IMG/VR virus record: IMGVR_UViG_3300005613_000119
Location: 1 to 45,300 of that record
Direction: 5' to 3' (one strand)
Origin: a virus
DNA length: 45,300 nt
The translations under genes were made by a program, and so were the position numbers. Below the pieces are notes generated by a model, which saw only the letters and a list, made by a program, of their open reading frames with translations, was not told the DNA's origin and made no database searches. Shown here one piece after another: positions 4,947-42,267 of this stretch. Within the stretch, counting starts at the first letter, position 1, and each line of letters begins with the position of its first letter.

Positions 4947-6698
4947 ATGAAACTAATCACAGAAGAAATTTCTAAAGTAAAATTTATTACAGAAGAAAAA
5001 AATGGACAAAAATCTCTTCACATAGAGGGAATTTTTTTACAAGCTGACATACAAAATAGAAATGGTAGGTGTTACCCAATGGAAACTCTCGCCAGAGAGG
5101 TTAGTAGATACAATGAAAATTATATCGGTAAAGGTAGAGCACTAGGAGAACTTGGACATCCTTGTCTAAGTGAAGATGCAAAGCTACTTTCAGAAAGTAA
5201 TGGTTGGAAGCATATTAAAAACTGCGAAGAAGGAGAATTAGTTTATACCATAAATCCAGAAACAAAAGAAGTTGAATTACATCCAGTCAAAAAAGTTGTA
5301 ATCAATGATCATAATGGTATTATGTATACCATTAAAAACAGAGGTATCAACACCAAAGTTACTCCAGATCATCGTTTTTTGATTATCAATGGTAGAAACA
5401 ATCATGATCATAAGTTTGTGACTGCACAAGAAATTTATGAAGATCTAAACGGAGAAAATGTTTATAAGAAATGGTATATTCCAAAGTATTCTCTAGGTTT
5501 GAATGAGGAAGCTCCTGATACCTATGTGATACCAAAATCTTCTAATATTCAAGTCATCAACGAAAAGACCGAAAAGTATCTAGAAGATCTTGAAATTGAA
5601 TTCAATACCTTTGCTGCTTTTCTTGGCATTTACCTAGCAGAAGGTCACTGTAGCATTAGAACTAATGGTTCTTATAATGTTGGCATTACTCAAAATCAAG
5701 GAGAAAAAGCAGATCGAATCAAAGAAATTTTAGATTCAATTAAAGAATTAACTTGGCATGAGAGCTATTGTGATGGTAAAATTATTTGGACTTGTTATGA
5801 TAGAAGACTTGGTGAATATCTACACCAATTTGGTGATTGCTATTCTAAGTATATTCCAAGAGATTTTATAAAAAGTCTCAATTCTGATGTAGCAAGAATA
5901 TTTATTGATTATTTTGTTCTTGGTGATGGTAGAGGCGATCTACAAAAACAATATTCTAGATGTGATTGTTTTAGTGCATCAGAAAAATTAATTGATGATA
6001 TTGCTCAAATAGCTACTATAGCTGGCATTGGAGTTTCTAGATTTAGCGAAACTACCACAGAAAATTATGTGTTTGCTGGTAGAGTTATCAAAGCAGAAAA
6101 TAAAGTTCCACTATACTTTTGTCGTTTCCTAAACACTAAAGGAATTTATCTAGACAATAGATTCCTTGAGATGACTACCGAAGATTGGAATGATAAAGTT
6201 TATTGTATTCAGGTAGAAAATACCAACTTCATGGTAGAACAAAATGGATACAGCTATTGGACTGGTAATTGTGGTCCCACAGTGAATCTAGATCGTGTAT
6301 CTCATATGATCACTTCATTGAAAGAAAGTGGCAATAATTTCATTGGTAAAGCAAAAATTCTCGATACTCCTATGGGAAAAATTGCTTCATCTCTAATTTC
6401 AGAAGGAGTTAAACTTGGGGTGTCTTCTCGTGGAATTGGTTCTTTGGTAGAGCGTAATGGTGTTCGTTATGTCTCTGATGATTTTATGTTAGCTACTGCT
6501 GCTGATATAGTTGCGGATCCTTCTGCCCCAGATGCTTTTGTAAATGGAATAATGGAAGGAGTTGAATGGATATATGACGCATCTAGGAATGATTGGTTAA
6601 TGCAAAACATGAAAAAAAGAATCAATCATCTAGTTAATACTAAAGAACTAGAAGAAAAGAAAATTCAGCTATTTGATGAGTTTTTAAATTCCCTCTAA
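4947..6698 (+). CDS. gp21: Prohead core protease gp21 with in-frame intein
   Basis: A 583-residue precursor whose exteins (residues 1-72 and 442-583) total 214 residues, almost the size of T4 gp21 (212). The N-extein ends GRALGELGHP, the block that carries the catalytic His of the T4 prohead protease family (MEROPS S77). The C-extein begins CGPTVNLDRVSHMI and contains GVSSRGIGS, the block with the catalytic Ser. The enzyme is made as a zymogen inside the prohead and cleaves scaffold and capsid proteins after (I/L)xE. The intein is inserted two residues after the active-site His, so the unspliced precursor should be inactive. The gene follows the 88-residue gene by three bases and is followed by tandem late boxes for gp22. 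Confidence 0.95.
   Translation: MKLITEEISKVKFITEEKNGQKSLHIEGIFLQADIQNRNGRCYPMETLAREVSRYNENYIGKGRALGELGHPCLSEDAKLLSESNGWKHIKNCEEGELVYTINPETKEVELHPVKKVVINDHNGIMYTIKNRGINTKVTPDHRFLIINGRNNHDHKFVTAQEIYEDLNGENVYKKWYIPKYSLGLNEEAPDTYVIPKSSNIQVINEKTEKYLEDLEIEFNTFAAFLGIYLAEGHCSIRTNGSYNVGITQNQGEKADRIKEILDSIKELTWHESYCDGKIIWTCYDRRLGEYLHQFGDCYSKYIPRDFIKSLNSDVARIFIDYFVLGDGRGDLQKQYSRCDCFSASEKLIDDIAQIATIAGIGVSRFSETTTENYVFAGRVIKAENKVPLYFCRFLNTKGIYLDNRFLEMTTEDWNDKVYCIQVENTNFMVEQNGYSYWTGNCGPTVNLDRVSHMITSLKESGNNFIGKAKILDTPMGKIASSLISEGVKLGVSSRGIGSLVERNGVRYVSDDFMLATAADIVADPSAPDAFVNGIMEGVEWIYDASRNDWLMQNMKKRINHLVNTKELEEKKIQLFDEFLNSL
5163..6269 (+). mobile_element. LAGLIDADG intein in gp21 (369 aa)
   Basis: Residues 73-441 of the precursor. 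Block A starts CLSEDAKLLSE; block B has KVTPDHRFLI with the TxxH pattern; two LAGLIDADG helices appear as FLGIYLAEGHC and YFVLGDGRGD; block F is VYCIQVENTNFMVEQNG; the C-terminus is YSYWTGN followed by Cys+1. The residue before the terminal Asn is Gly rather than the usual His, a known but less common variation. Extein junctions are clean: removal leaves GELGHP joined to CGPTVNLDRVS. Confidence 0.92.
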
Positions 6699-29825: not shown

Positions 29826-30241
29826 TGGAAAACAATCAAAAAATTGATAGTCAAAAATATATTGAATTTGTCAAACAAACTACTAGCCCAGCAAGTTCTG
29901 ATGTTGATACTCTAGTTGAGCGAATTCGTGAACTTGATGGTGAAGGAGTTAAGTTGACTCATCTGTTGACCTTTGCTCTAGGTGCTTCTGCTGAACTCGG
30001 GGAAGCAGTTGAAATTATTAAAAAATGTCTCCTCCAAGGAAAAAAATTGGATGAATCCGCAACCATTCACCTCAAGAAAGAATTGGGAGATGTGACATTT
30101 TATATTGGACAGTTTTGTATTGCAATGGATATGACATTTGAAGATATCATGCAACTTAATTATGAGAAACTAAGCGTCCGATATCCAGAAGGTACCTTTA
30201 GTGTTTATCGTTCCGAAAACCGTCGCCCTGGAGATGTATAA
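29825..30241 (+). CDS. mazG: MazG-like nucleotide pyrophosphohydrolase
   Basis: A 138-residue all-alpha NTP pyrophosphohydrolase. Metal ligands follow the MazG pattern: Glu57 and Glu60 in ASAELGEAVEIIKK, and Glu86 and Asp89 in HLKKELGDVTFYI. The C-terminal RYPEGTFSVYRSENR is conserved in the short cyanophage form. Cyanophage MazG is thought to adjust host nucleotide pools during infection. It ends the gp41 unit and is followed by the structured element and the first free-standing endonuclease. Confidence 0.93.
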   Translation: MENNQKIDSQKYIEFVKQTTSPASSDVDTLVERIRELDGEGVKLTHLLTFALGASAELGEAVEIIKKCLLQGKKLDESATIHLKKELGDVTFYIGQFCIAMDMTFEDIMQLNYEKLSVRYPEGTFSVYRSENRRPGDV

Positions 30242-30252
30242 ATAATTCTGTC

Positions 30253-30354
30253 CTTTTGTACGGCAATACTCTACGGACAGCATTGGGTGCTTCTTATGAG
30301 GCACCTTTTGTTTTGCCAAAAATTATTCGACTAAATAATAATGCCGTACAAAAG
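30253..30354 (+). promoter_or_regulatory. Structured element 1 upstream of endonuclease gene
   Basis: Outer arms CTTTTGTACGGCA (30253-30265) and TGCCGTACAAAAG (30342-30354) are a perfect 13-base inverted repeat. Inside are a repeated TACGG, a hairpin GGTGCTT/AGGCACC with loop CTTATG (30286-30305) followed by a T-rich tract, and ACTAAATAATAA just before the right arm. The same arrangement occurs at 42179-42257 before an unrelated endonuclease gene. Confidence 0.7.
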
Positions 30355-30361
30355 AATAACA

Positions 30362-31297
30362 ATGGCAAGTATCAAAAAACTGACCACGGAAGAAATTATC
30401 CAGCGTTTCAAAGAAAAAAGAGATGACAAAGGAGAATTCTACGATTACTCCCAAGTCAATTATGTTAATACTCAAACAAAGGTCAAAATAATATGCCCAC
30501 TTCACGGTGAATTTCACCAATTTCCTAAGGATCACGCTAGGGGATATAGTGGATGCGTTAAATGTTCAACACAAAAACGAGAAATTACAAATCTAGAAAA
30601 ATACGGGACAAACTGTGTCTTTAAAAACGAAGAGATAAAAACAAAAATAAAACAAACAAATATAGAAAGATATGGAGTAGAAAATCCATCACAATGTCCA
30701 GAAATACACCAAAAGAAGATGGAAACTTGTTTGAAAAATTATGGATACGAATCTGCTTTAACATCTCCTATAGGAAGACAAAAAATAATACAAACAAATC
30801 TAGAAAAATACGGAGTTTCGTGTGCAATGAAACTTTCAGAAATCACACAAAAATCCGTAGCAACCAGAATTCAAAATGGAACCTACATGCCAAAAAATTG
30901 TTCATATGAATGCCGAGACTTCATGAGAACCTACATAAAACAAAAAAATTATGATTTAGATCAATGTGCATTTTCTGACTCGGAAAACAATCTACATGAA
31001 TGGGGATATCATGTTGATGGTAGATGGGTTCTTTATGACTTAGTTGTATTTGAAAAAGGTTTCAGGGGGAATAAAGACAGAATCATAGAAATTCTAGAAT
31101 ATCATGGTCCATTTCACTACACAGAAAAAGATGTATTAGAAAGAGGAGAGCAAAAAGCTACTCCATGGAAAGCCAAAACAATTACAATCAAAGAAAGTTA
31201 CGAAATCGACAAACTGAAAGAAAAATTTGCAAAATCTTTAACGACTAACTATACTGTAATTTGGCCTAGTAAATACCACGAAAATGACAAAGCATAA
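30362..31297 (+). CDS. Homing endonuclease, Vsr-like (EDxHD-type) with DUF723-like N-terminus
   Basis: About 311 residues from the ATG at 30362; an earlier ATG at 30341 lies inside the inverted-repeat arm, so the later start is preferred. Numbered from there, residues about 30-70 have a zinc-ribbon-like IICPLHGEF...GCVKCST segment of DUF723 type. Next come three repeats of the LEKYGxxxxxxxxxI form (NLEKYGTNCVF, NIERYGVENPS, NLEKYGVSCAM), probably DNA-binding. The C-terminal domain has GYHVDGRWVLYDLVVFEKG and IIEILEYHGPFHYTEKD, which fits the D, E and H residues of the Vsr-like/EDxHD homing nuclease family known from marine phage split-gene loci. It stands between mazG and a small cyanophage gene. 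Confidence 0.82.
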   Translation: MASIKKLTTEEIIQRFKEKRDDKGEFYDYSQVNYVNTQTKVKIICPLHGEFHQFPKDHARGYSGCVKCSTQKREITNLEKYGTNCVFKNEEIKTKIKQTNIERYGVENPSQCPEIHQKKMETCLKNYGYESALTSPIGRQKIIQTNLEKYGVSCAMKLSEITQKSVATRIQNGTYMPKNCSYECRDFMRTYIKQKNYDLDQCAFSDSENNLHEWGYHVDGRWVLYDLVVFEKGFRGNKDRIIEILEYHGPFHYTEKDVLERGEQKATPWKAKTITIKESYEIDKLKEKFAKSLTTNYTVIWPSKYHENDKA

Positions 31298-31427
31298 AAA
31301 CCTAACCATAAAACTCGACACACCAACAGCATTAGATTTTCTACAAACTCTCGATTCTTCTACATTTGGTTACAGTAAAGAACATGAACCCGAAAGAATC
31401 GCAAGACTTAGATCTCTTATGATGTAG
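31284..31427 (+). CDS. Small protein ending at an amber codon, possibly truncated
   Basis: A 47-residue frame, MTKHKNLTIKLDTPTALDFL then SSTFGYSKEHEPERIARLRS, ending LMM-TAG. It overlaps the 3' end of the endonuclease gene. The frame continues after the TAG for ten sense codons (LDQELEKLIV) before TGA, and the extension has the amphipathic helical character expected of the family's C-terminus. This could be a fresh nonsense mutation, readthrough, or simply the true end. A terminator follows. Function unknown. Confidence 0.55.
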   Translation: MTKHKNLTIKLDTPTALDFLQTLDSSTFGYSKEHEPERIARLRSLMM

Positions 31428-31465
31428 CTAGATCAAGAACTAGAAAAACTTATTGTTTGAATTTT

Positions 31466-31486
31466 ACCTCCTTCGGGAGGTTTTTT
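31466..31486 (+). terminator. Rho-independent terminator with TTCG loop
   Basis: ACCTCC-TTCG-GGAGGT followed by a T run: a compact stem with a stable UUCG tetraloop. It separates the replication/endonuclease region from the late cargo-like genes. Confidence 0.9.
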
Positions 31487-31488
31487 AG

Positions 31489-31496
31489 TATAAATA
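31489..31496 (+). promoter_or_regulatory. Late promoter box (TATAAATA)
   Basis: A perfect late consensus directly after the terminator T run and 24 bases before the ATG at 31520. Confidence 0.68.
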
Positions 31497-31519
31497 ATAA
31501 GAAAGCTGTATAAGTATAA

Positions 31520-32140
31520 ATGGAATTATTCATTGCAAAGTATTTGGTAGAAAATGGATTTGCTAATGATATCGTATCAGCACTAAAAATACTTTATTCC
31601 GCAAGTGATGATTGGTATGATGAACTTCTAAATGAGAATATAACAAAAGAATTGTCTGACATGAGAAGACAAATTCAGCAATTAACGCAAAGAGGAAAGC
31701 CAGTTCCCCCAGCGATGAGAGCAAAAGCTGCTGAATTGGCGAAAGAAGTCAGAGCATCTGCAAATATCGGAGCAGAATTGAATAGAGGAAAAACAAAAAA
31801 GAATAGAGTTCCTGGCTCTGGTAGCAGACCCCAAAAACCTGAGATGAGAGATCCTAGACTTGGACCAACAACACAACAAAGACAAGCTGATGCTGCCGCT
31901 ACAAGAATGGTAGGATCAGTAGAAAGAGGAGCAACTGTAATTAGAAGAAATTCGGATGGCACTACTACTAGAGTTTCTGCAAACTTTACTAGAGATCCAA
32001 TTAATGTAAGGTCTGATGCAACTAGAAAAGAAAGAAGATCTGGTAGTAGCAGAACAACTGAAAGACCTGAAGTTGGTAGGTGGAGTCGAAGTCGCTCTGT
32101 CGAAGATGCTCCCAGATCATTTAGAAGAGGAAATAGATAA
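31520..32140 (+). CDS. Basic protein, probable capsid-internal protein
   Basis: A 206-residue, strongly basic protein. The N-terminal helical segment ELFIAKYLVENGFANDIVSA, then LKILYSASDDWYDELLNE, resembles the short acidic helical module at the C-terminus of the basic protein at 43148. The rest is Arg-, Ser- and Thr-rich low complexity (MRRQIQQLTQRGK, RSGSSRTTERPE, FRRGNR) suited to binding DNA. An LVE tripeptide at residues 9-11 could be a gp21 cleavage site. It has a perfect late promoter. I infer an internal head protein packaged with or injected with DNA; no named family is recognised. Confidence 0.7.
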   Translation: MELFIAKYLVENGFANDIVSALKILYSASDDWYDELLNENITKELSDMRRQIQQLTQRGKPVPPAMRAKAAELAKEVRASANIGAELNRGKTKKNRVPGSGSRPQKPEMRDPRLGPTTQQRQADAAATRMVGSVERGATVIRRNSDGTTTRVSANFTRDPINVRSDATRKERRSGSSRTTERPEVGRWSRSRSVEDAPRSFRRGNR

Positions 32141-32141
32141 A

Positions 32142-32148
32142 ATAAATA
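32142..32148 (+). promoter_or_regulatory. Late promoter box
   Basis: AATAAATAA just after the preceding stop codon and 21 bases before the ATG at 32170. Confidence 0.55.
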
Positions 32149-32169
32149 AATGAGGAATTCCTAACAAGA

Positions 32170-33396
32170 ATGAAAAAGTTTTCGCAATTTATAATAGAAT
32201 TTCGTGGCTCTAGGGCATCAGAAAAAGCTTATCGTCTTGGCTTGACTTCTGATGGTCATGGAAACTGGGTAGATAGAAGTGGGAGAGTCGTAGCACAAAC
32301 AGTCGGTGGCGATCTGGAAATGATCCGCAAAAAAAGCCCCACCCCAGAAAAAGTAGCTCCAGGGCCAAAGGGTCCAAAGTCAGCACAAAAAGAAACTGAC
32401 AAATTGCCATCACCAAAGGAAAGATTAGGCATAAAATCGCCAAAGCAAGAGCCAGAACCCCCAGAAATCGACAAAGAAATTCCTTTAACTGTTGTGTTTG
32501 GTAGATTTAACCCACCAACAATTGGACACGAAAAGCTAATCAAAAAAGCAAAAGAAATTTCTTCTGGTGGAGATTTTAAAATATACCCATCAAGAACACA
32601 AGATACAAAAAAGAATCCATTAGATCCAGCTTCTAAAGTAAAATACATGAAAAAAATGTTTCCAGATTATAAGGAAAACATTGTAAATGATAATAAAATG
32701 AAGACTATATTTGATGTTTTGGTTGGAGCAAACGAAGACGGATATAAAAAGGTTAATATTGTAGTAGGATCAGAAAGACTTCCTGAATTCGAAAGATTGG
32801 CAAATCAATATAATGATCAAATATATTCATTTGACGAGATTAATGTAGTTCCTGCTGGTAATAGAGATCCAGATGCTGAAGGAGCAGCAGGAATGTCAGC
32901 ATCTAAACTGCGTAAAGCGGCGGTTAATGATAATTATCAGCAGTTTAAAACTGGTGTCCCAAAAAGAATGAAAGAAAAAGATGCACAGGCTATGTTTTTT
33001 GCCGTTCGGAGAGTAATGTTAGGCGAGAAGACGCCAAAAGAAAAAGTAACAGAAGTTTGGGAATATGCACCAAAGTTAGACTATGAACAACTCAGAGAGC
33101 AATATTATCAAAAAAATATATTTAAAGTTGGTGATGTAGTTGAGAATTTGAATACTGGTTTAGTCGGTGAGGTAACTCGTCGTGGAACAAATTACTTAAT
33201 TTGTGTTACTGAAGATGGTATTATGTTTAAGTCTTGGATTAAAGATTTGACAGAGTGGACTGAAGTTTCTGGAGTTCCAGCCGATCAAAGGTTAGTTGGC
33301 ACTGATTCTCATAGAGAGTATGTTATGAGAATGAGTGATACTGATAAAATTGAAAATTTCATAAAGAAATACAGAAAGAGCGTAAAGAATAAATAA
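32170..33396 (+). CDS. Nucleotidyltransferase (NMNAT-like) with apparent capsid-targeting N-terminus
   Basis: A 408-residue protein. Residues 1-10 (MKKFSQFIIE) resemble the T4 capsid-targeting sequence of Alt and internal proteins, which have an MKTYQEFIAE-like start cut after (I/L)xE. A Gly-rich segment with TSDGHGNWVDRSGR and a basic Pro-rich linker follow. Residues about 105-290 form a cytidylyltransferase-fold domain: GRFNPPTIGH (111-120) with the TxGH-type nucleotide-binding motif and GMSASKLRKA (241-250), equivalent to the ISSTxxR motif. The C-terminal part has a KOW-like strand region VGDVVENLNTGLVGEV. Cyanophages often carry such a gene, sometimes called NadM/NMNAT-like. Activity on NMN is inferred; the natural substrate is not proven. 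Confidence 0.82.
   Translation: MKKFSQFIIEFRGSRASEKAYRLGLTSDGHGNWVDRSGRVVAQTVGGDLEMIRKKSPTPEKVAPGPKGPKSAQKETDKLPSPKERLGIKSPKQEPEPPEIDKEIPLTVVFGRFNPPTIGHEKLIKKAKEISSGGDFKIYPSRTQDTKKNPLDPASKVKYMKKMFPDYKENIVNDNKMKTIFDVLVGANEDGYKKVNIVVGSERLPEFERLANQYNDQIYSFDEINVVPAGNRDPDAEGAAGMSASKLRKAAVNDNYQQFKTGVPKRMKEKDAQAMFFAVRRVMLGEKTPKEKVTEVWEYAPKLDYEQLREQYYQKNIFKVGDVVENLNTGLVGEVTRRGTNYLICVTEDGIMFKSWIKDLTEWTEVSGVPADQRLVGTDSHREYVMRMSDTDKIENFIKKYRKSVKNK
33389..33395 (+). promoter_or_regulatory. Late promoter box
   Basis: GAATAAATAAATT overlaps the preceding stop codon region, 31 bases before the ATG at 33427. Confidence 0.55.
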
Positions 33397-33426
33397 ATTT
33401 ATAAGTTTTTCCTAGAGTTTGTAACA

Positions 33427-35013
33427 ATGTCTGATCGTATCGTAGAAGGTCTAAATGAAATGAAACAGATTTATTTAAACTCTGTTTCTGGTCAAGTAAT
33501 TTCAGAGAGAAATGAGTATCTCCAATATATTGAAGAGAAGAAAGCAACGAAAGACTATGATGGAGATGGTGAGATAGAAAGCGGAGAAGAACACGCAGGT
33601 TCAGTTCATAATGCTATACAAAGAAACCTAGGTGGCATTCCAGATGGAAATCCACCAAAAAGAAGAAAAAATAATAAGATATCAGAGCAGGTTATAAATG
33701 TAATTGAGGAAGTGCAATATGAATTGCAACAAGAAGGATATGAAATCGAAGATATTGAAGAAGCGATTAAATATGCTTTAGTTGAATCAGAAGAAGGAAA
33801 TAATCGACTGTCAGTTATGAAGAGAGCAAAAAGGTTCCTCAAAAAAAATCTTAAGAGATTGAAAAAAAGTTTGAAGTATGCTGCAGCGGGTGGTGATCCA
33901 ATTAGTAGTACACCAAAAGATGACCCAAGACACAAAGAATTCAAAAGGGGACAGGAAGTAGCAAGAAGATTGAATAGAATGGGAACTAGAAGAATATTAA
34001 GAAGAGTTGAAACAAATATGGCAGAGTCTTTTTCTGATTGGAGAGGAGATCTATACGAAAGAATTGGTGATGTTGAATCAGACATAAAAAAAACCAAAGA
34101 GAATAAAATAATCGAGAGATCTAATATTGATAATAAGATCGAAATTAATCCCAATGTGAATATTGGAGAGCAAGTAGAACTATCTGAAGAGTATATCCAA
34201 GAAGTTGTTGATATTGCTTCTCAGTATTTTTATGAGCAAGGCTTAAATGAACAAGGTCTTGAGATGGTGATTGAAGAATTGGGGTACGATAAATTTATTG
34301 AATATGTTTTTTACATTTCTGAAGATTTTATTTTGACCGAAGCCAGGAGAGCAAAAAGAGTTCCAACTACACCAGAAGAAAGAGAAGAAAAGATAGCAAA
34401 AATCAAACGAGAAATTGATGCTAGAGAAGCAGCAAAGAAAAAACCAACCACAGCAAAAAAAGTTGTGACATCTAAAGGAAACAATACTGTAAAAACTGCA
34501 GTTCAAACACAATCCGAAAAACCACAACAGAAGTCGGAGCCAAAAGGATTCGAGAGAGCAGCTGGTCAAGTTAGAGATTTTGTAACATCACAAGAAACCA
34601 AAGATAAGCTGAAAGACATGGTAGGCGCAGCAGTAAGAAAAGCAAAGTCTGATATTGGTAGAACTGGAATGGCTGCAATTCATGCTACGGGAGCTGCCAA
34701 AAAAGCAAGGGGAAGAGGTGCATCTGCTGCTGGTGCTGCTGGTGCTGCTGCTGGCACTTTCATCCGTGGCTTAATGCGCGGTTCTACTGCCACTGGAGTA
34801 AAAGAAGAAATTGAAGCATTTCTCCTAGAAAAATCAGAAAGTCAACAACAACAAAAACTTTTTGGTCTAGCTCTTTCTGTCGTGAGGGGACAAACTCCAA
34901 GATCTGAAGTAAGTAAAGAAGTTCTTGATATCGTAGATGGAATGTCAGAAAAAGAAATTCGTAAGTTTGCAAAAACTCCACATAAAGGTCTACCAAAAAA
35001 AGTAGAGAATTGA
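33427..35013 (+). CDS. Large basic virion-associated protein with EF-hand-like loop
   Basis: A 528-residue protein. Residues 43-54 (DYDGDGEIESGE) form a canonical 12-residue EF-hand calcium loop (D1, D3, D5, E7, E9, E12 positions filled). A basic Arg/Lys segment follows (RLSVMKRAKRFLKKNLKRLK), then an acidic helical block near 245-300 (VELSEEYIQEVVDIASQYFY), then a Lys/Ala/Gly-rich stretch (GRTGMAAIHATGAAKKARGR) and an acidic helical end. Alternation of acidic helical modules with DNA-binding-like tracts is shared with the proteins at 31520 and 43148. An IVE at residues 5-7 may be a protease site. Late promoter upstream. I infer a structural or internal head protein; not a recognised named gene. 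Confidence 0.72.
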   Translation: MSDRIVEGLNEMKQIYLNSVSGQVISERNEYLQYIEEKKATKDYDGDGEIESGEEHAGSVHNAIQRNLGGIPDGNPPKRRKNNKISEQVINVIEEVQYELQQEGYEIEDIEEAIKYALVESEEGNNRLSVMKRAKRFLKKNLKRLKKSLKYAAAGGDPISSTPKDDPRHKEFKRGQEVARRLNRMGTRRILRRVETNMAESFSDWRGDLYERIGDVESDIKKTKENKIIERSNIDNKIEINPNVNIGEQVELSEEYIQEVVDIASQYFYEQGLNEQGLEMVIEELGYDKFIEYVFYISEDFILTEARRAKRVPTTPEEREEKIAKIKREIDAREAAKKKPTTAKKVVTSKGNNTVKTAVQTQSEKPQQKSEPKGFERAAGQVRDFVTSQETKDKLKDMVGAAVRKAKSDIGRTGMAAIHATGAAKKARGRGASAAGAAGAAAGTFIRGLMRGSTATGVKEEIEAFLLEKSESQQQQKLFGLALSVVRGQTPRSEVSKEVLDIVDGMSEKEIRKFAKTPHKGLPKKVEN

Positions 35014-35014
35014 G

Positions 35015-35425
35015 ATGTCAATTACATTTAATCAATTTTTCTCTAAAATAGATGAAGCCAATCTTGCTGGCTCTAGACCAAGACCAAGAGGTAAAGATGT
35101 CTTGACATCAGCGGAAAGAGCAAGAGTTAGTACAAGAAGAGACAGAACTCCAATTCAAAGAACTGGTGGCGGTGTATCTTATGTCACGATTTCACCGAAG
35201 AAAGAAGAAAAACCAGAACCTCCTAAAAATACATCAAAAACATATATTCAAAAGTGGATTCCTGGATTTCCGCCACCAAAAGATATGAAGGTTAAGTCTA
35301 GTAAAAAAATAAAACTAAAAAAACCGGAAAAGAAACAAAAAACTAAAAGAGTTAAAACAAGACAACTGACACTAAGACTTAAAGAGTTTGTGGAACTATA
35401 TCGCCAAAGCATCACAGAATCATAA
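35015..35425 (+). CDS. Small very basic protein with capsid-targeting-like N-terminus
   Basis: A 136-residue, Lys/Arg/Pro-rich protein. The start, MSITFNQFFSKIDEANLAG, resembles the targeting peptide of T4 internal proteins, with an IDE site at residues 12-14. The rest is low complexity (RPRPRGKDVLTSAERARVST, KIKLKKPEKKQKTKR). The ATG follows the preceding stop by one base, so it is cotranscribed and coupled with the EF-hand-like protein. The probable role is packaging with DNA inside the head; inference only. Confidence 0.68.
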   Translation: MSITFNQFFSKIDEANLAGSRPRPRGKDVLTSAERARVSTRRDRTPIQRTGGGVSYVTISPKKEEKPEPPKNTSKTYIQKWIPGFPPPKDMKVKSSKKIKLKKPEKKQKTKRVKTRQLTLRLKEFVELYRQSITES

Positions 35426-35428
35426 ATA
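35422..35428 (+). promoter_or_regulatory. Late promoter box
   Basis: CATAAATAT overlaps the preceding stop codon; the gene it serves starts at 35467. Confidence 0.58.
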
Positions 35429-35466
35429 TTTTTGGATAACATTCAAAAATCACAAAGGAGGACATC

Positions 35467-35646
35467 ATGGACTTTTTAGGGTCACTGGTAGAAGTCGTAA
35501 AGCCACTTCTCATTGCAGCAATGAACTCTTGTCATACTAAGCGTCTTGTAGTTGAATTACTTGAGCGTTATGTAAAAACCACTGATAATGATATCGATGA
35601 TTTAATTTCTGGCACTGTAAGAACTGCACTACTCAAAGACTGCTGA
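35467..35646 (+). CDS. Small conserved cyanophage protein (59 aa)
   Basis: A 59-residue frame, MDFLGSLVEVVKPLLIAAMN then SCHTKRLVVELLERYVKTTD and ISGTVRTALLKDC. It has a perfect AAAGGAGG ribosome site six bases before the ATG, its own late-promoter box and a strong terminator: an independent, well-translated late gene despite its size. The sequence is helical, with a hydrophobic first helix and two Cys residues. I recall very similar small proteins in cyanophages, always uncharacterised. A minor virion protein is likely; function unknown. Confidence 0.82.
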   Translation: MDFLGSLVEVVKPLLIAAMNSCHTKRLVVELLERYVKTTDNDIDDLISGTVRTALLKDC

Positions 35647-35666
35647 TAAAAATTAACATAGAAAAC

Positions 35667-35699
35667 AAAGAGATCTCAATAATATGAGATCTCTTTTTT
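35667..35699 (+). terminator. Rho-independent terminator
   Basis: Perfect 12-pair stem AAAGAGATCTCA/TGAGATCTCTTT with loop ATAATA, running into a T tract. Confidence 0.92.
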
Positions 35700-35700
35700 C

Positions 35701-35707
35701 ATAAATA
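35701..35707 (+). promoter_or_regulatory. Late promoter box
   Basis: CATAAATATT directly follows the terminator T run, 35 bases before the ATG at 35743. Confidence 0.58.
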
Positions 35708-35742
35708 TTCTTAGATAAAAAAATTAGTAAAGGTACACGAGA

Positions 35743-36585
35743 ATGGCACTCTGGGGAACAGCAGATAGTCTTTATTCTGTAGGAACTATTGAAGTTGATT
35801 ATTCTGGAAAGCAAGTAATTGGAAGCGGGACATCATTTACTGCTACTGGAATTTCGACTGGTGATATGATTACTATTGGAGCCGGTGGTACTTTTGGTTC
35901 CGCAATAATTTCTGGGATCACTTCCGATTTAGTAATTTCAATTGCAACCACACAATATCTAACTGGGCAGGTAATTTCCGGCGTTGCTTATTCTATTTCG
36001 GAAAAACCAATTTATACATTAGAGGATTCAAACTATTCATCTAATGTTGTTGGATTAACAACAACAGTACCAAAGCATAATGTATATGGTATTGACATCT
36101 ACGAAACTGGACTTCTAGCGCCAGGCGCATCTGGCTTGTCAACTCAATATGGTGGGTTTCATGCTGGTTGGGTTGGTATTCATACTTATGTTGATGCTGA
36201 TGGTAACTTCAGAGTTAAGACTGAGACTCTTGTTGCTATGTCAAGTATCAATGGAGGTACTTTCCCAACTTATTCTGCTGCTGGCGATGCCGATGACGAT
36301 ACAGTTCTAGTTGATGCTGCTATTACGATTACTTCTCAGCCTGCTTCCGTTGGTGTTGGTACTACCGAAACTGCAACATTCAGTGTAACTGCTTCCGTTG
36401 TTCCTTCTTATGCTCCACTAGCATATCAATGGTATGAGGAAGGTTCTATTCTTGCTGGAGAAACCGGAACTAGTGTGGCTATTGCAAATACCGATGCAAG
36501 TAAAGATGGTTATGAATATAATGTTGTGATTACTTCTGGTGATGTTACCGCAACTTCTGGTATAGCAACAATGTCTGTTTCATGA
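35743..36585 (+). CDS. Virion structural protein with C-terminal Ig-like domain
   Basis: A 280-residue, all-beta, Gly/Ser/Thr-rich protein. MALWGTADSLYSVGTIEVDY, followed by GSGTSFTATGISTGDMITI, is the start pattern of a cyanophage virion protein group. The middle has a HAGWVGIHTYVDADGNFRVK segment. Residues about 190-280 form an Ig-like domain: ITITSQPASVGVGTTETATF, LAYQWYEEGS and YNVVITSGDVTATSGIA with the conserved Trp. Ig-like domains decorate capsids and tails, as in T4 Hoc, and may bind cell surface glycans weakly. Late promoter and good codon use suggest an abundant protein. Confidence 0.85.
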   Translation: MALWGTADSLYSVGTIEVDYSGKQVIGSGTSFTATGISTGDMITIGAGGTFGSAIISGITSDLVISIATTQYLTGQVISGVAYSISEKPIYTLEDSNYSSNVVGLTTTVPKHNVYGIDIYETGLLAPGASGLSTQYGGFHAGWVGIHTYVDADGNFRVKTETLVAMSSINGGTFPTYSAAGDADDDTVLVDAAITITSQPASVGVGTTETATFSVTASVVPSYAPLAYQWYEEGSILAGETGTSVAIANTDASKDGYEYNVVITSGDVTATSGIATMSVS

Positions 36586-36591
36586 TAAATT

Positions 36592-36972
36592 ATGTTATTT
36601 ACCGAACTGAATGAGGAGAATTTTCTTTTATTTGCCATTAAAAATTATGAGAATCCTCAGGCAGTAACAAAAGAAGATTTTGATCGAGATCTAAATCATT
36701 TTAAATATATAAAAAGATTATTCAGAAGATATAAAAATACAGGTGTCCTGAAAACACACCTGTTGATTAATCATTTTGTAATTTTATATAATATATTTGG
36801 TGAAGCAACAACACCAATGTTGTTTTTTAAAATTGACACTGATCTTTGGTCTTATATGAAAACATTTGTGGTGTTTTTGAATCGATTACCAGAATATCCG
36901 AGAGGATATATACATGATATACCAATAGATCCATATTGCGCCAAAGAATTGGAGAAAATTTCAAATGAGTAG
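36592..36972 (+). CDS. Conserved phage protein of unknown function (LINHFVILYNIFG type)
   Basis: A 126-residue helical protein: YIKRLFRRYKNTGVLKTHLL, INHFVILYNIFGEATTPMLF and a C-terminal YIHDIPIDPYCAKELEKI. The LINHxxxLYNxFG core recurs in small proteins of many marine phages, mostly beside structural genes, and has no known function to me. A short repeat ACAGGTGT...ACACCTGT within the gene could form a hairpin but is coding. It overlaps the next gene by eight bases. Confidence 0.75.
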   Translation: MLFTELNEENFLLFAIKNYENPQAVTKEDFDRDLNHFKYIKRLFRRYKNTGVLKTHLLINHFVILYNIFGEATTPMLFFKIDTDLWSYMKTFVVFLNRLPEYPRGYIHDIPIDPYCAKELEKISNE

Positions 36973-37192
36973 ATTAGATAAAGTCATACAAATTGTTAGG
37001 GAGAATATGGTTGCAAATGCACCAGGTCAAAGTGGTGGATTTAGTGGAAGTTCAGAAGACCCAACAGCTGGATTTGATCCAAAAACTGAATTAGGAATGT
37101 TCCGCAGAACAATTGGTGGTTTGGTTGATAAAAGATCAAAGCAATATAATAAGAAATATGAAGCTTGGTTAAAATCTATGGGATTATTATAA
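36965..37192 (+). CDS. Small protein sharing the gp23 N-arm motif
   Basis: A 75-residue protein. Residues about 18-48 (NAPGQSGGFSGSSEDPTAGF, then DPKTELGMFRR) closely match the N-terminal arm of gp23 in this genome (residues 63-94, with SGGFSGS, P-x-AGFDP and RR in the same order). The N-terminal MSRLDKVIQIVRENM is helical and the C-terminus basic. I infer a virion-associated small protein that uses the same binding or processing signal as the capsid protein. Function unknown. It overlaps the preceding gene, indicating coupling. Confidence 0.75.
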   Translation: MSRLDKVIQIVRENMVANAPGQSGGFSGSSEDPTAGFDPKTELGMFRRTIGGLVDKRSKQYNKKYEAWLKSMGLL

Positions 37193-37194
37193 GA

Positions 37195-37201
37195 ATAAAT
37201 A
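37195..37201 (+). promoter_or_regulatory. Late promoter box
   Basis: GAATAAATAA just after the 75-residue gene and about 50 bases before the ATG at 37251, the longest spacing in the set. Confidence 0.48.
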
Positions 37202-37250
37202 ATGATGATATAATTTTTGTGAATAGATATCAAATAGTCAGATTCGCAAA

Positions 37251-37667
37251 ATGTCAGAAGAAGCAGTAAAAATTGCAGTTCTAGATCAAAAACTAACAGA
37301 TTTTGCGAATGTTGTTCGTAAGTTAGATGATGCTATAGAAAAACTCAGCGAAGTAAACTCTAATGTGATAAAAATGTTAGCTGTTCATGAAGAAAAAATA
37401 GAACAATGTAATAAATCAGATGATTTAATTGTGAAAATGATAGAAGATGTCAAAGAAAATAATTCCAGAGATCATAAAAATGTAATGGAAAGAGTAGAAA
37501 AAATAGAATCAAGAGTAGAAGAAATTAATAAAATCAAATGGATGACTGTTGGTTGTGGTGTACTTCTGGTAGTATTAACTGGAGCACTCGCCTCACTAGC
37601 TTCAGGTTGGTGGACTCCATCTGAAATGCAAAAACATCATGAAATTAAAAGTTATGTAGCTCCCTGA
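37251..37667 (+). CDS. Coiled-coil protein with C-terminal membrane segment
   Basis: A 138-residue protein. Residues about 5-92 form a heptad-like coiled coil (AVLDQKLTDFANVVRKLDDA, ESRVEEINKIK). Residues about 95-117 (WMTVGCGVLLVVLTGALASL) are a single hydrophobic helix, followed by a short polar tail with WWTPSEMQKHHE. The outline matches small phage membrane-anchored proteins seen in T4-like and T7-like marine phages, sometimes near lysis or structural genes. A spanin-like or holin-partner role cannot be excluded, but nothing specific supports it. Confidence 0.75.
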   Translation: MSEEAVKIAVLDQKLTDFANVVRKLDDAIEKLSEVNSNVIKMLAVHEEKIEQCNKSDDLIVKMIEDVKENNSRDHKNVMERVEKIESRVEEINKIKWMTVGCGVLLVVLTGALASLASGWWTPSEMQKHHEIKSYVAP

Positions 37668-37668
37668 C

Positions 37669-37697
37669 TTGACTGATTTGCGGTTGAGTGGTAGAAT
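37669..37697 (+). promoter_or_regulatory. Sigma70-type promoter for primase/nrdAB
   Basis: TTGACT, a 17-base spacer, TAGAAT: five of six matches in each box. It lies 26 bases before the gp61 ATG and probably serves 61-nrdA. Confidence 0.68.
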
Positions 37698-37723
37698 AAA
37701 AATTCTTGAAATGTCTATAAATT

Positions 37724-38698
37724 ATGGATTTTACTGATGTCAAGTACATTAATCTTTTGTCTAGTAGATTAGAAAAATTTACTAAAAAAAATTCAAATCT
37801 TTATAACTGTAGATGTCCAATTTGTGGAGATTCTAAAAAAAATAAATCCAGAGCAAGAGGATATTTTTACTCAGTAAAAAATAACACAAATTATAAATGC
37901 CATAATTGTGGAGTTAATATATCACTGAATAATTTTTTGAAGTCTTTTGATTCTACCCTGCACAAAGAATATTGCTTAGAAAAATATTCTTCTGGGTTTA
38001 CTGGAAAAAATTTTACAGCAGAAACTCCAAAGTTTGATTTTAAAAAACCAAAATTTAAGGCAAAGTTAAATTTACCAAAAGCTTCTGAAAATTTACAAGC
38101 AAATGAATATTTAAAAAATAGAAAATTAGATCCTAGTAAGTTTTATTATGCTGAAAAATTTAAAAAGTGGACAAATACTTTAATACAAACATTTGATTCA
38201 AAATCATTAAAGTATGAGGAACCAAGAATCGTCATTCCATTATACTATAAGAAAGAATTGATTGGATTTCAAGGAAGAGCAATTTATTCAAGTGGAGTTA
38301 AATACATTACGATTATGTTAGATGATGATGCTCCGAAGATTTATGGATATGATGATGTAAATTTGGATTTTCCGGTTTATGTTCTTGAGGGTCCGTTTGA
38401 TTCCACATTTATCCAGAATTCTGTTGCCATGTGTGGATCTGATCTAAACTCAACAAATCTAAATATTTCTCGTCCGATCTATGTCTACGATAATGAGCCG
38501 CGAAATAAGGAAATTCATGCAAGAATGATTTCCAGAATTGAATCCGGTAATACGATCGTGATATGGCCAAATTCAATTCAAGAAAAAGATGCAAATGAAA
38601 TGTTTATGTCTGGACTTGATGTTCAGTCTATTGTAGAAACAAACACTTACTCTGGATTAGAAGCAAAACTCAAGTTTAACGAATGGAAAAAGGTATGA
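37724..38698 (+). CDS. gp61: DNA primase gp61
   Basis: A 324-residue protein (T4 gp61: 342 aa). The N-terminal zinc module has CPIC (Cys31, Cys34) and CHNC (Cys59, Cys62). RIVIPLYYKKELIGFQGRAI and the TOPRIM-type YVLEGPFDSTF with its catalytic Glu, then YVYDNEPRNKE, follow. It makes RNA primers at the fork with gp41. It overlaps nrdA as ATGA when the later nrdA start is used. Confidence 0.94.
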   Translation: MDFTDVKYINLLSSRLEKFTKKNSNLYNCRCPICGDSKKNKSRARGYFYSVKNNTNYKCHNCGVNISLNNFLKSFDSTLHKEYCLEKYSSGFTGKNFTAETPKFDFKKPKFKAKLNLPKASENLQANEYLKNRKLDPSKFYYAEKFKKWTNTLIQTFDSKSLKYEEPRIVIPLYYKKELIGFQGRAIYSSGVKYITIMLDDDAPKIYGYDDVNLDFPVYVLEGPFDSTFIQNSVAMCGSDLNSTNLNISRPIYVYDNEPRNKEIHARMISRIESGNTIVIWPNSIQEKDANEMFMSGLDVQSIVETNTYSGLEAKLKFNEWKKV

Positions 38699-40995
38699 CC
38701 AACGGAATTAAAGTTCAAAAAAGAAATGGTACAATTGAGGGACTAAATCTTGATAAGATGCACATGATGGTTGAAGAAGCTTGTAGAGGTCTCTCAGGCG
38801 TGTCTGCATCACAGGTTGAGATGTCTTCTGGTTTGCAGATTTATGATGGAATTACTACAAATGAGATTCAGGAAATTCTGGTTAAGTCTGCTTCCGATTT
38901 GATTTCATTAGATTCGCCAAACTATCAATATGTTGCTGCAAGACTTCTTCTGTTTTCTATTCGTAAAAAGATTTATGGTGGGCGAATTGATCTCCCACAC
39001 CTAGAGGATCACATCAATTCTTGTGTTATGAAGCATGTTTATGATCATGATATTTACAATAAGTATTCTAAGGAAGAAATCGATAAGGCAAATTCCTTCA
39101 TTGATCATGATCGAGATTTTCTCTTTACATACGCTGGTCTTCGCCAGGTAGTTGATAAGTATCTGGTACAGGATAGGAGTTCTGGAGAACTTTATGAGAC
39201 TCCCCAGTTTGCTTATATTATGATTGCATTGACTGGTTTTTCGAACTATCCAAAGGAAAAGAGGATGTCTTATGTGAAACGGTATTATGATGCAATTTCA
39301 AAGCATAAGATTAATATTCCTACTCCAATTATGGCTGGGGTTAGGACTCCACTTCGCCAATACAGTAGTTGCGTTTTAGTCGACTCTGGTGATAGTCTAG
39401 ATAGTATTTTTAGCAGTGATATGGCCATTGGGCGATATGTTGCACAACGAGCTGGAATTGGAATCAATGCTGGTAGAATTCGTGCAATAAATTCTAAAAT
39501 TCGTGGTGGTGAAGTTGTCCATACTGGAGTAATTCCATTCCTTAAGAAGTTTGAATCGACAGTAAAATGTTGTACGCAAAATGGAATTCGAGGTGGATCA
39601 GCAACAACATTTTTCCCTGTGTGGCATAGGGAGATTGAAGATATTATTGTTCTTAAGAATAATAAAGGAACAGAAGATAATCGAGTTCGTAATCTAGATT
39701 ATGCAATTCAATTTAGTAAAATCTTTTATGAGCGTTTTATTAAAAATGAAGATATAACTCTATTTTCCCCTCATGATGTTCCAGGTCTTTATGATCTATT
39801 TGGTATGGATGGTTTTGATGAACTTTATGTTCAGTACGAAAACGATCCAGAAATTCCAAAGAAAGTTGTAAAGGCACAAGAACTTATTTTGGATATTCTG
39901 AAAGAAAGAGCTGAGACTGGCAGAATTTATATTATGAATATCGACCATTCCAATTCTCATGGATCTTTTAAGGAACAAGTTTCTATGAGTAATCTTTGTA
40001 TGGAAATCCTTTTGAGGACTGAGCCAATTAATCATATTGATGATGATCTAGGAAAAATTGCTTTGTGTATTCTATCTTGCATTAATGTTGGCGTCGTCAA
40101 GTCTGACAAAGAATTGGAACAACTTTGTGATATTAGTGTACGATTTTTGGATGAACTCATTGACCATCAAGATTATCCAGTCAAAGCAGCTGAAATTACC
40201 ACGAGAGGAAGTCGTTCTTTGGGTATTGGTGTTATTGGACTTGCACATTATCTTGCTAAGCTTGGTTTGAAATATGATGACCCAAAAGCCTGGAGTGCAG
40301 TGCATGGATTGTCGGAAAGTCTACAATACTATCTACTGAAAGCATCTAATGAATTGGCCAAAGAAAAAGGTGCATGTGATAATTTTGGAACTACAAAATA
40401 TTCGGATGGAATTTTGCCAATAGACACTTACAAAACACAAATTGATGAGATTTGTAATGATCCATATCAGCATGATTGGGAAGAGTTGCGCCGAGATATT
40501 ATGTCTTATGGCCTAAGACATACAACACTCACCGCTCAACCCCCAACTGAAAGTTCATCTGTTGTGTGTAATGCTACAAATGGAATTGAGCCACCACGAG
40601 ATTTCCTCTCAATTAAACAATCCAAAAAAGGCACACTGAAGCAAATTGTTCCACAGTATAATAAACTAAAAAATCATTATACTTTATTGTGGGACATGCA
40701 ATCCAACGAGGGATACATTAACATTGTTGCTATAATGCAAAAGTTTTTTGATCAGGCAATTAGTGCTAACTGGACTTACAATCCAGAAAATTATCCAAAT
40801 AAAGAAGTTCCAGTGACTGTTATTGTAAATGATTTTCTGTCTTGTTACCAAAAAGGACATAAGACAGCTTATTATCATAATACTTATGATGGAAAAACTG
40901 ATGATGTCTCTGCGGAAAAATTAAATGATCTAAGTGAATTAGTTTCTGAATTACTTCAATCTTCTTTGGAAGACTGCGAAGCTTGTAATGTATAA
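38695..40995 (+). CDS. nrdA: Ribonucleotide reductase class Ia large subunit NrdA
   Basis: About 766 residues from the ATG at 38695, which overlaps the gp61 stop as ATGA; an ATG four codons earlier is also possible. Conserved elements are KVQKRNGTIEGL (N-terminal), QYSSCVLVDSGDSLDSIFSS with the first active-site Cys, GIGINAGRIRAINSKIRGG, SNLCMEILLRTEP with the catalytic Cys-x-Glu, and the C-terminal CEACNV, whose CxxC pair re-reduces the active site. It makes deoxynucleotides for phage DNA. No intein or split is present, although nrdA often hosts them in marine phages. nrdB follows after 17 bases. Confidence 0.95.
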   Translation: MTNGIKVQKRNGTIEGLNLDKMHMMVEEACRGLSGVSASQVEMSSGLQIYDGITTNEIQEILVKSASDLISLDSPNYQYVAARLLLFSIRKKIYGGRIDLPHLEDHINSCVMKHVYDHDIYNKYSKEEIDKANSFIDHDRDFLFTYAGLRQVVDKYLVQDRSSGELYETPQFAYIMIALTGFSNYPKEKRMSYVKRYYDAISKHKINIPTPIMAGVRTPLRQYSSCVLVDSGDSLDSIFSSDMAIGRYVAQRAGIGINAGRIRAINSKIRGGEVVHTGVIPFLKKFESTVKCCTQNGIRGGSATTFFPVWHREIEDIIVLKNNKGTEDNRVRNLDYAIQFSKIFYERFIKNEDITLFSPHDVPGLYDLFGMDGFDELYVQYENDPEIPKKVVKAQELILDILKERAETGRIYIMNIDHSNSHGSFKEQVSMSNLCMEILLRTEPINHIDDDLGKIALCILSCINVGVVKSDKELEQLCDISVRFLDELIDHQDYPVKAAEITTRGSRSLGIGVIGLAHYLAKLGLKYDDPKAWSAVHGLSESLQYYLLKASNELAKEKGACDNFGTTKYSDGILPIDTYKTQIDEICNDPYQHDWEELRRDIMSYGLRHTTLTAQPPTESSSVVCNATNGIEPPRDFLSIKQSKKGTLKQIVPQYNKLKNHYTLLWDMQSNEGYINIVAIMQKFFDQAISANWTYNPENYPNKEVPVTVIVNDFLSCYQKGHKTAYYHNTYDGKTDDVSAEKLNDLSELVSELLQSSLEDCEACNV

Positions 40996-41012
40996 TTAAA
41001 AGAGGAGTATTT

Positions 41013-42161
41013 ATGGCATCAATAGAAGGAATGACAGTATTCAACACAAACAAAGTTAACACACTTAAGCAACCGATGTTTTTTGGTTCTCCACTTGGAG
41101 TGCAAAGATACGATGAATATAAGTATCCGGTCTTTGAAAAAATTACTCAGCAACAGTTGAGTTTTTTCTGGAGACCCGAGGAAATTAATCTCCAGAAAGA
41201 TCGTGCCGACTATCAAACACTTCGCCCAGAGCAGAAGCATATTTTCACTTCTAACTTGAAGTATCAAATTATGCTTGATAGTGTGCAGGGAAGAGGTCCA
41301 AATATGGTACTATGTCCGTATTGTTCTCTTCCAGAGCTTGAGGCTGCGATGACTGTATGGGGATTTATGGAGATGATTCATAGTCGTTCTTATACTTATA
41401 TCATTAAGAATGTATATTCAAACCCAAGTGAAGTTTTTGATACTATCATTGAAGATGAGAAAATCCTAGAAAGAGCTTCGAGTGTTACTAGTTCTTATGA
41501 TGATTTTATGCAGTCTGCTCAAGATTATAGCTCATCAAACTTATGGAAATTTAATAATGAAGGAGTTGATTTGGGTAAAGCTGAAGTTTATGAATTGAAA
41601 CGAAAGCTATATCGCGCAATAATGATTGTAAATATTCTTGAAGGAATTAGGTTTTATGTTTCGTTTGCTTGCTCCTTTGCCTTTGGTGAACTGAAACTTA
41701 TGGAAGGTTCTGCAAAGATTATTTCGCTCATATCAAGGGATGAAAATATTCATCTTAATCTTACGCAGAATATTCTCGCAAAATGGAAAAGTGGCGATGA
41801 TCCGGATATGGTTAAAATCGCAGATGAGGAATTGGATTGGACTTATAAAGCTTTTGATAAAGCAGTCAATGAAGAAAAAAACTGGGCTAAGTACATTTTT
41901 CAGAATGGAAGCATGATTGGATTGAATGATAAGCTTCTTTATAATTATATTGAGTGGATTGCAAATCGTAGGATGAAAGCTATTGGACTCAAGCCAGTAT
42001 ATTCAATTTCTGCAAATAATAATCCATTGCCTTGGACTGAAAATTGGATTTCTAGTAAAGGTGTACAAGTGGCACCACAAGAAGTGCAAATCACATCTTA
42101 TTTGGTTGGTGCACTCAATCAAGATATGAAGGAAAATCAATTTGCAAACTTTAAACTTTAA
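41013..42161 (+). CDS. nrdB: Ribonucleotide reductase class Ia small subunit NrdB
   Basis: A 382-residue ferritin-like protein. LDSVQGRGPN gives Asp89; GFMEMIHSRSYTYI gives Glu120, His123 and the radical Tyr127, aligned with E. coli NrdB Asp84, Glu115, His118 and Tyr122. EGIRFYVSFACSFAF and SRDENIHLNL provide the remaining iron ligands. A GAGGAG ribosome site precedes the ATG. It generates the tyrosyl radical for NrdA. A second structured endonuclease-associated element begins 18 bases after its stop. Confidence 0.96.
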   Translation: MASIEGMTVFNTNKVNTLKQPMFFGSPLGVQRYDEYKYPVFEKITQQQLSFFWRPEEINLQKDRADYQTLRPEQKHIFTSNLKYQIMLDSVQGRGPNMVLCPYCSLPELEAAMTVWGFMEMIHSRSYTYIIKNVYSNPSEVFDTIIEDEKILERASSVTSSYDDFMQSAQDYSSSNLWKFNNEGVDLGKAEVYELKRKLYRAIMIVNILEGIRFYVSFACSFAFGELKLMEGSAKIISLISRDENIHLNLTQNILAKWKSGDDPDMVKIADEELDWTYKAFDKAVNEEKNWAKYIFQNGSMIGLNDKLLYNYIEWIANRRMKAIGLKPVYSISANNNPLPWTENWISSKGVQVAPQEVQITSYLVGALNQDMKENQFANFKL

Positions 42162-42178
42162 CTAAATAGATAGGTCTG

Positions 42179-42257
42179 TTAGTACGGCAATACTTTACGG
42201 GCAGATTAGGTGCTCTTATGGGCACCTTTTCTATTATAAATAATAATGCCGTACTAA
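42179..42257 (+). promoter_or_regulatory. Structured element 2 upstream of endonuclease gene
   Basis: Outer arms TTAGTACGGCA (42179-42189) and TGCCGTACTAA (42247-42257) are a perfect inverted repeat. Inside are a second TACGG, hairpin AGGTGCT/GGCACCT with loop CTTATG (42208-42227) followed by TTTT, and TATAAATAATAA before the right arm. It matches element 1 in order and loop sequence; outer stem bases that differ do so on both sides. Confidence 0.72.
42235..42242 (+). promoter_or_regulatory. Late promoter box inside element 2
   Basis: A perfect TATAAATA four bases before the right arm of the inverted repeat, 26 bases before the ATG at 42268. A transcript started here would lack the left arm and so could not form the outer stem. 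Confidence 0.6.
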
Positions 42258-42267
42258 TAGAATAAAA

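Follow-up and report, generated by a model that had tools for sequence, protein, structure and literature searches.

Introduction

Several homing endonuclease genes (HEGs) of T4-like phages are governed by complementary arms that lie around the late promoter of the gene. Read-through RNA hides the ribosome-binding site, and the late RNA is made without the 5′ arm (PMC2988022, PMC3014915). In IS10, a 69-nt antisense RNA—RNA-OUT—is directed against the translation-initiation region of the transposase; it blocks ribosome binding, and inhibition rises with copy number (PMC5006887). The cyanophage S-PM2 makes CfrI, an RNA of ~225 nt that is antisense to both psbA and a HEG (PMC2984593). As of a 2010 review, T4 itself was without any functionally characterised trans-acting regulatory RNA (PMC3014915).

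Here we describe a composite element that precedes HEGs of T4-like cyanophages. We lean, by no great measure, towards regarding it as a portable two-RNA control cassette of free-standing HEGs.

Results

Two composite elements in a cyanophage record

The window (the whole stretch analysed, a virus record of 45.3 kb) comes from a T4-like cyanophage and has genes for a DnaB-like helicase, MazG, the small chain of ribonucleotide reductase and the prohead protease. The prohead core protease gene (Peptidase_S77; 4947–6698) has an apparent intein (matches to Intein_splicing and, weakly, to LAGLIDADG). A preliminary description of the window reported two similar structured elements, each standing before an endonuclease gene, and both are borne out by the sequence; each lies between a core-gene stop codon (MazG for element E1, nrdB for element E2) and the endonuclease gene (Table 1). 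Several parts had gone unnoticed: a 'AAATAATAA stretch' recorded there is a T4-type late promoter sequence, a second late promoter sequence lies just 5′ of each element, the hairpin and T-run make up an intrinsic terminator, and a helix, P1, crosses the helix formed by the long arms, P2. What had been listed as a 'second TACGG' is partly the 3′ strand of P1.

Table 1. Positions in the window of the parts of E1 and E2 and of the genes behind them; promoters and transcription starts are predictions.
Feature	Coordinates	Strand	Basis and remarks
E1 late promoter 1, TATAAATA	30237..30244	+	Sequence; overlaps stop codon of MazG-like gene
E1 P1 5′ strand, CTGTCC	30248..30253	+	Pairs with 30275-30280; predicted transcription start ~30250; P1 covaries across elements
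E1 P2 5′ arm (antisense arm), CTTTTGTACGGCA	30253..30265	+	Perfect 13-bp complement of 30342-30354
E1 P1 3′ strand, GGACAG	30275..30280	+	Complement of 30248-30253
E1 intrinsic-terminator hairpin, GGGTGC..GCACCT, and T-run	30285..30309	+	Sequence
E1 late promoter 2, ACTAAATA	30330..30337	+	Sequence; TAAATA here in all elements
E1 P2 3′ arm, TGCCGTACAAAAG; predicted 5′ end of late HEG mRNA	30342..30354	+	Start 30343 predicted from T4 spacing (PMC2988020)
E1 HEG, DUF7487 / PHROG homing endonuclease, 311 aa	30362..31297	+	Pfam PF24308 2.6e-17; phrog_12131 'homing endonuclease' 2.3e-22
E2 late promoter 1, CTAAATA	42162..42168	+	Sequence; directly 3′ of nrdB stop; missing from the L173 empty site after nrdB
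E2 P1 5′ strand, TCTGT	42175..42179	+	Pairs with 42201-42205 (one U-G pair); predicted start ~42174; ACAGA in sister L031
E2 P2 5′ arm, TCTGTTAGTACGGCA	42175..42189	+	15-bp helix with one G-U
E2 P2 5′ arm core, TTAGTACGGCA	42179..42189	+	11 bp with TGCCGTACTAA at 42247-42257
E2 P1 3′ strand, GCAGA	42201..42205	+	Pairs with 42175-42179
E2 intrinsic-terminator hairpin, AGGTGC..GCACCT, and T-run	42208..42230	+	Sequence
E2 late promoter 2, TATAAATA	42235..42242	+	Sequence; fits T4 late consensus (PMC3037559, PMC2988020)
E2 P2 3′ arm, TGCCGTACTAATAGA; predicted 5′ end of late HEG mRNA	42247..42261	+	Sequence; core TGCCGTACTAA 42247-42257
E2 HEG, GIY-YIG-like, 267 aa	42268..43071	+	phrog_314 'homing endonuclease' E = 4e-4 (weak); cyanophage relatives by tblastn

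In a chance control with the same geometry, randomised sequence of the Synechococcus phage S-SRM01 yielded arms of 10 bp at the longest, with only 0–6 hits per strand, so the arms of the window (13 bp in E1; 11 bp in E2, or 15 with one G-U) exceed chance. The downstream proteins do belong to different families, as had been claimed, and have no sequence similarity to each other (E = 2). No Pfam match was obtained with the 267-aa protein behind E2, and its GIY-YIG label expresses motif resemblance only. A tblastn-confirmed search of viral contigs found no relatives of the E1 endonuclease. When the elements were used in DNA similarity searches, E2 matched S-SRM01, and E1 had no true relative in cultured phages.

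Architecture and occurrence of the element

A descriptor scan took the place of a covariance model, because covariance models cannot represent the crossing of P1 and P2 and the sequence of P2 is barely conserved. The order of parts can be observed directly. Late promoter 1 (TAAATA) is followed after 4 nt by the P1 5′ strand, the P2 5′ arm, a few bases and the P1 3′ strand; then come a G+C-rich terminator hairpin with its T-run, late promoter 2 (TATAAATA) and, 4–5 nt further, the P2 3′ arm, which ends 5–17 nt from the HEG start codon. Among the 87 elements of the strict set the 5′ arm takes 61 distinct forms. In 83 of them TAAATA lies 3–6 nt ahead of P1, a TTT run is present at the terminator hairpin in 78, and the TAAATA of promoter 2 is found 4–5 nt before the P2 3′ arm in 93 of 109. 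The conserved bases are those of the promoters and the terminator; P2 has 42 different inner 8-mers among the 87 elements. In many cases promoter 1 shares bases with the stop codon of the gene before it, as in E1 and at 48435 and 51249 of S-SRM01, and the cassette therefore abuts the gene end directly.

Circularity was guarded against by a blind scan for 'TAAATA - hairpin with T-run - TAAATA' in which P2 was not used. Over everything fetched it returned 118 distinct sites; a script detected P2 in 109, and visual inspection added B23:241181, L258 and L272, making ~112 altogether. Five of the remaining rows are four ordinary terminator-promoter units (that in L113 appearing twice), and one is L227. 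At this last site (L227:306) the 5′ half resembles the GIY-YIG-type cassettes, the 3′ half resembles the HNH-type, and the P2 arms are mismatched; it is either a natural recombinant or an assembly chimera.

The metagenomic contigs are mutually related, with many sequences not independent, and most loci were obtained through endonuclease queries; it is therefore the whole genomes and the nrdB neighbourhoods that carry the association with HEGs. A set of 1.4 Mb, mostly not selected for HEGs, comprised 80 nrdB neighbourhoods, the window, S-SRM01, phage B23 and stretches of two marine phages. The blind scan found 10 distinct sites in it, of which 9 have P2 (12–16 bp), and all 9 stand before HEGs or their remnants. 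S-SRM01 (241 kb) has six elements, each before a gene of HNH or GIY-YIG type, with arms that are entirely different between elements, yet complementary. In B23 two elements were located by the P2 scan (41460 and 179662) and a third by the architecture scan (241181), all before endonuclease genes; the corresponding counts for HEGs or remnants are 2/2 in the window and 3/3 in the nrdB neighbourhoods. The preliminary description held that its reading would fail if the element preceded many ordinary genes. This was looked for in S-SRM01, B23, the window and the nrdB neighbourhoods and was not met.

Among loci collected with endonuclease queries, most of the 80 IMG/VR GIY-YIG loci have the element, and 80 loci of an HNH family unrelated to GIY-YIG gave 37 distinct composite elements. 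Leaders anchored at the gene start, with arms not required, have a perfect upstream complement of at least 8 nt in 46 of 59 distinct cases; of the 13 without one, most prove on inspection to have a P2 that includes G-U pairs, and in swapped-leader controls the complement lengths peak at 5–6 nt. An exact pattern search with TACGGCA arms gave 17 hits, eight real and nine by chance, and seven of the eight precede GIY-YIG-like genes, one being cut by the contig end.

The element thus accompanies endonucleases of several unrelated families (GIY-YIG, HNH and DUF7487-type), and the same P2 arms are found with unrelated endonucleases. PHROG or Pfam endonuclease matches were obtained for most of the downstream families tested; some have none, and their assignment rests on relatives or motif. 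The genes S-SRM01 gp114, B23 gp45 and Sf-CH5 gp200 are of the GIY-YIG/NUMOD3 type and are annotated 'translation initiation factor 2'. The suggestion that the element goes with endonuclease genes in general was too broad: none was seen in 67 loci related to the HNH gene gp066 of S-SRM01, many other HEGs of S-SRM01 lack it, and it is limited to T4-like cyanophages with TAAATA late promoters. No composite element was present in the stretches of ACG-2014f and S-N03.

Other arrangements occur as well. A second composite design before endonuclease genes runs GGGCAGCAAC, P2 5′ arm, GTTGCGTAAGTCCC, T-run, TATAAATA, P2 3′ arm, start (L085:933, L113:2907, L123:1794, L130:1567, L222:694, S-SRM01 77576 before gp152, L257 and L266); its 5′ arm is inside a terminator-like hairpin with nearly invariant flanks and no Rfam match. 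Simple T4-type hairpins (10–20 bp) with a single late promoter precede other endonuclease genes (S-SRM01 126123 and 142259, L150:5136, L192:2817 and L199:8155), so that simple and composite designs coexist in one phage group. In five contigs (L142:2947, L178:4741, L182:4776, L190:1561 and L210:4575) a recurring structural-type gene (MALWG...) has its late promoter flanked by short arms of 8 bp, mostly rich in A+T, without P1 or promoter 1 and possibly by chance.

Pairing at the RNA level

Selection for pairing, as first argued from two copies, is strongly supported: P2 arms unrelated in sequence are complementary in more than 100 distinct elements, and the outer-stem difference between E1 and E2 (TTTT/AAAA against TTA/TAA) is a genuine change on both sides. 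In 50 elements aligned with MAFFT, all five inner P2 pairs show double-sided changes (56 cells versus 20.3 in shuffles), and their covariation is 0.495 as compared with at most 0.193 for slid partners. On arms so variable MAFFT is reliable only for these five pairs, and P1 was therefore tested by script. The CCTG type of P1 has its CAGG partner in 24 of 30 elements, whereas CAGG occurs in just one of 16 in the TCTG group; the CTCT type has AGAG in 4/4 and the CCTT type AAGG in 5/6. With all types pooled, a swap test gave a mean weight of 4.7 against 3.8 for the control, a modest signal because P1 types are few.

Under a score that rewards Watson-Crick pairs only, the internal mismatches of P2 are G-U or U-G in 31 cases, A-C in one, and others in 16. 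Some of the G-U cases fall at a single conserved position, the junction of the P1 strand with P2, and not all are independent events. Judged from the sequences, the excess of G-U over A-C marks pairing as RNA, on the HEG-sense strand. Inverted arms beside a mobile gene might also be a DNA site for endonuclease binding, cleavage or recombination, but a double-stranded site does not predict 31 G-U against one A-C on that strand, nor arms that vary between copies with complementarity kept. Arm variation, G-U mismatches and the sharing of arms among unrelated endonucleases all disfavour the inverted-repeat reading, which we hold to be very unlikely.

The order 5′-P1, 5′-P2, 3′-P1, hairpin, 3′-P2 recalls HDV-like ribozymes, and a self-cleaving or self-splicing RNA was considered. 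There is no conserved catalytic core, the bases that are conserved belonging instead to promoter and terminator. Rfam had no match at the gathering score in the whole window, and an E-value 1 search of both elements gave sub-threshold chance matches and no ribozyme. With neither a family match nor a core, the HDV-like reading was dropped, and a catalytic RNA seems scarcely credible.

Two predicted transcription units and an empty site

The T4 late box begins at -13 (PMC2988020), so a start is expected 6 nt past the box. Measured in this way, the start of P1 relative to box 1 and that of the P2 3′ arm relative to box 2 are both at predicted transcription starts, and since P1 lies 3–6 nt past box 1 and the P2 3′ arm 4–5 nt past box 2, each unit would begin with its helix strand. 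Promoters and starts are assigned by analogy with T4 in the absence of transcript data, and promoter activity is an inference. The pairing attributed to a single structured element stands; what was taken for one fold is probably two transcription units with complementary RNAs.

That promoter 1 forms part of the inserted cassette can be seen at nrdB. In contig L173, which is from a related phage, a terminator and a late promoter come directly after nrdB, and the next gene is shared with the window; there is neither an endonuclease nor promoter 1. In the window the whole of E2 and its HEG is inserted between nrdB and the terminator seen in L173. Promoter 1 is absent from the empty site and must have arrived with the cassette, a conclusion that applies to the E2 site only. 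At the same nrdB site L135 has an intact element and an endonuclease remnant of 31 residues. In L196 an element precedes a gene whose start codon appears changed.

A terminator between paired strands could also act as a transcriptional attenuator, with alternative P1, P2 and terminator structures deciding whether polymerase reads through into the HEG. P1 and outer P2 share the same CTG bases and hence compete for them, and a G-U pair is conserved there, which speaks for such a device. The terminator stem is, however, overlapped by neither helix, and the P2 3′ arm, transcribed only past the terminator, is unable to decide termination; we regard attenuation as very unlikely.

A two-RNA model and its main alternative

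In the two-RNA cassette, late promoter 1 would give a short RNA1, predicted to be about 46–74 nt long (mean 57), in which the P1 stem-loop displays the P2 5′ arm ahead of the intrinsic terminator. In S-SRM01 such RNAs would have their starts near 17966, 48446, 51260, 55972, 62419 and 192434. Late promoter 2 would give the HEG mRNA, its first 8–16 nt being the P2 3′ arm and thus the complementary target; RNA1 would pair in trans with this 5′ end and hinder ribosome loading. Read-through RNA from upstream has both arms and would be self-silenced in cis. On read-through RNA of the early and middle periods the HEG would then be closed, and late in infection the ratio of RNA1 to mRNA would set how far it is held back. 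The existence of RNA1, its action in trans and translational repression are inferred, and the main gap is that no RNA has been observed.

Computed duplexes fit this model. An RNA1 binds its own mRNA with a mean of -22.7 kcal/mol, 7.7 better than the -15.0 for mismatched partners, and in an RNA1-by-mRNA comparison for S-SRM01 the own partner is best in each row. RNA1 of E2 scores -18.0 on the E1 mRNA versus -24.6 on its own, and RNA1 of E1 scores -14.9 on the E2 mRNA versus -21.6; the two share an arm core, so some cross-control is possible. Nested folding of read-through RNA, with the pseudoknot left out, gave P2 a mean pairing probability of 0.97 across 86 transcripts; the unpaired probability of the 20 nt ahead of the start codon is 0.26 on that RNA versus 0.68 on promoter-2 RNA alone. 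If these folds are right, the P2 block would be the cis block known from T4.

The serious alternative is a timing switch that works in cis alone, in which read-through RNA is blocked and promoter-2 RNA translated, with promoter 1, P1 and the terminator either incidental or insulating the HEG from upstream transcription. Such switches are well established for I-TevI, I-TevII, I-TevIII, mobE and segB (PMC2988022, PMC3014915). Some other HEGs of this phage group do have just a simple hairpin about a single late promoter in front of them (S-SRM01 126123 and 142259, L192, L199), the computed folds have P2 closing the leader in cis, and P2 with promoter 2 would be equally required by either arrangement and does not discriminate. 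The antisense model is also weakened by the competition of P1 and outer P2 for shared bases, by the modest pooled signal for P1, by ribosome-binding sites that are weak and by P2 usually ending short of the start codon. Against a purely cis switch, promoter 1 belongs to the inserted cassette at a fixed spacing to P1, P1 covaries and the T-run is kept; the simple hairpins in the same genomes lack promoter 1, P1 and the terminator, none of which a cis model predicts. We treat the cis-only switch as a tentative possibility that cannot be set aside. A separate antisense RNA is the best explanation for the additional parts that are conserved (promoter 1, P1 and the terminator), with the proviso that no such RNA has been observed.

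Discussion

Cutting rival genomes is how homing endonucleases spread; the reason for the tight control of their expression is still an open question. It seems to us an evenly balanced matter whether these phages hold a large family of small antisense RNAs dedicated to HEGs, each with its own target code, swapped between unrelated endonuclease families and limiting selfish-gene expression by dosage, in trans as well as in cis. The cassette predicts ~100 trans-acting RNAs in cyanophages, each with a defined target, and the cultured phages S-SRM01 and B23 should have several. It also provides a sequence signature by which unannotated HEGs can be found, among them genes that currently go by 'translation initiation factor 2' or as hypothetical, and it supplies naturally occurring RNA pairs whose codes are partly private. 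The S-SRM01 genome paper makes no mention of promoters, terminators or small RNAs, and a literature search, with subscription journals mostly outside its coverage, found no paper on such an element.

As in the switches of I-TevI, I-TevII, I-TevIII, T4 segB and Aeh1 mobE, a late promoter lies between the arms and close to the 3′ arm, and, in silico only, the ribosome-binding region is hidden on read-through RNA and open on late RNA. Unlike those simple hairpins, the cassette includes a further late promoter, the crossing helix P1 and an intrinsic terminator; its 5′ arm is a predicted transcription unit of its own, and one module serves several endonuclease families. With IS10 RNA-IN/RNA-OUT it would share a short RNA complementary to the start region of a selfish-element mRNA—complementarity and predicted starts fit, the RNA itself being unobserved—whereas in IS10 the opposite DNA strand encodes the antisense RNA, with pairing along 35 nt, and here the RNA would come from the same strand, upstream, and pair over 8–16 nt. 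Like CfrI, it would involve an RNA of a T4-like cyanophage tied to a HEG; unlike CfrI, it is on the sense strand, 5′ of the HEG, and has a predicted terminated RNA with a matching mRNA 5′ end. In the strict sense the cassette is neither a T4-type switch, in view of its extra parts, nor an IS10-type system, the RNA being on the same strand. Its cis half resembles, by analogy, the control of T4 I-TevI and of mobE, and its antisense-RNA half, which is inferred, would be new.
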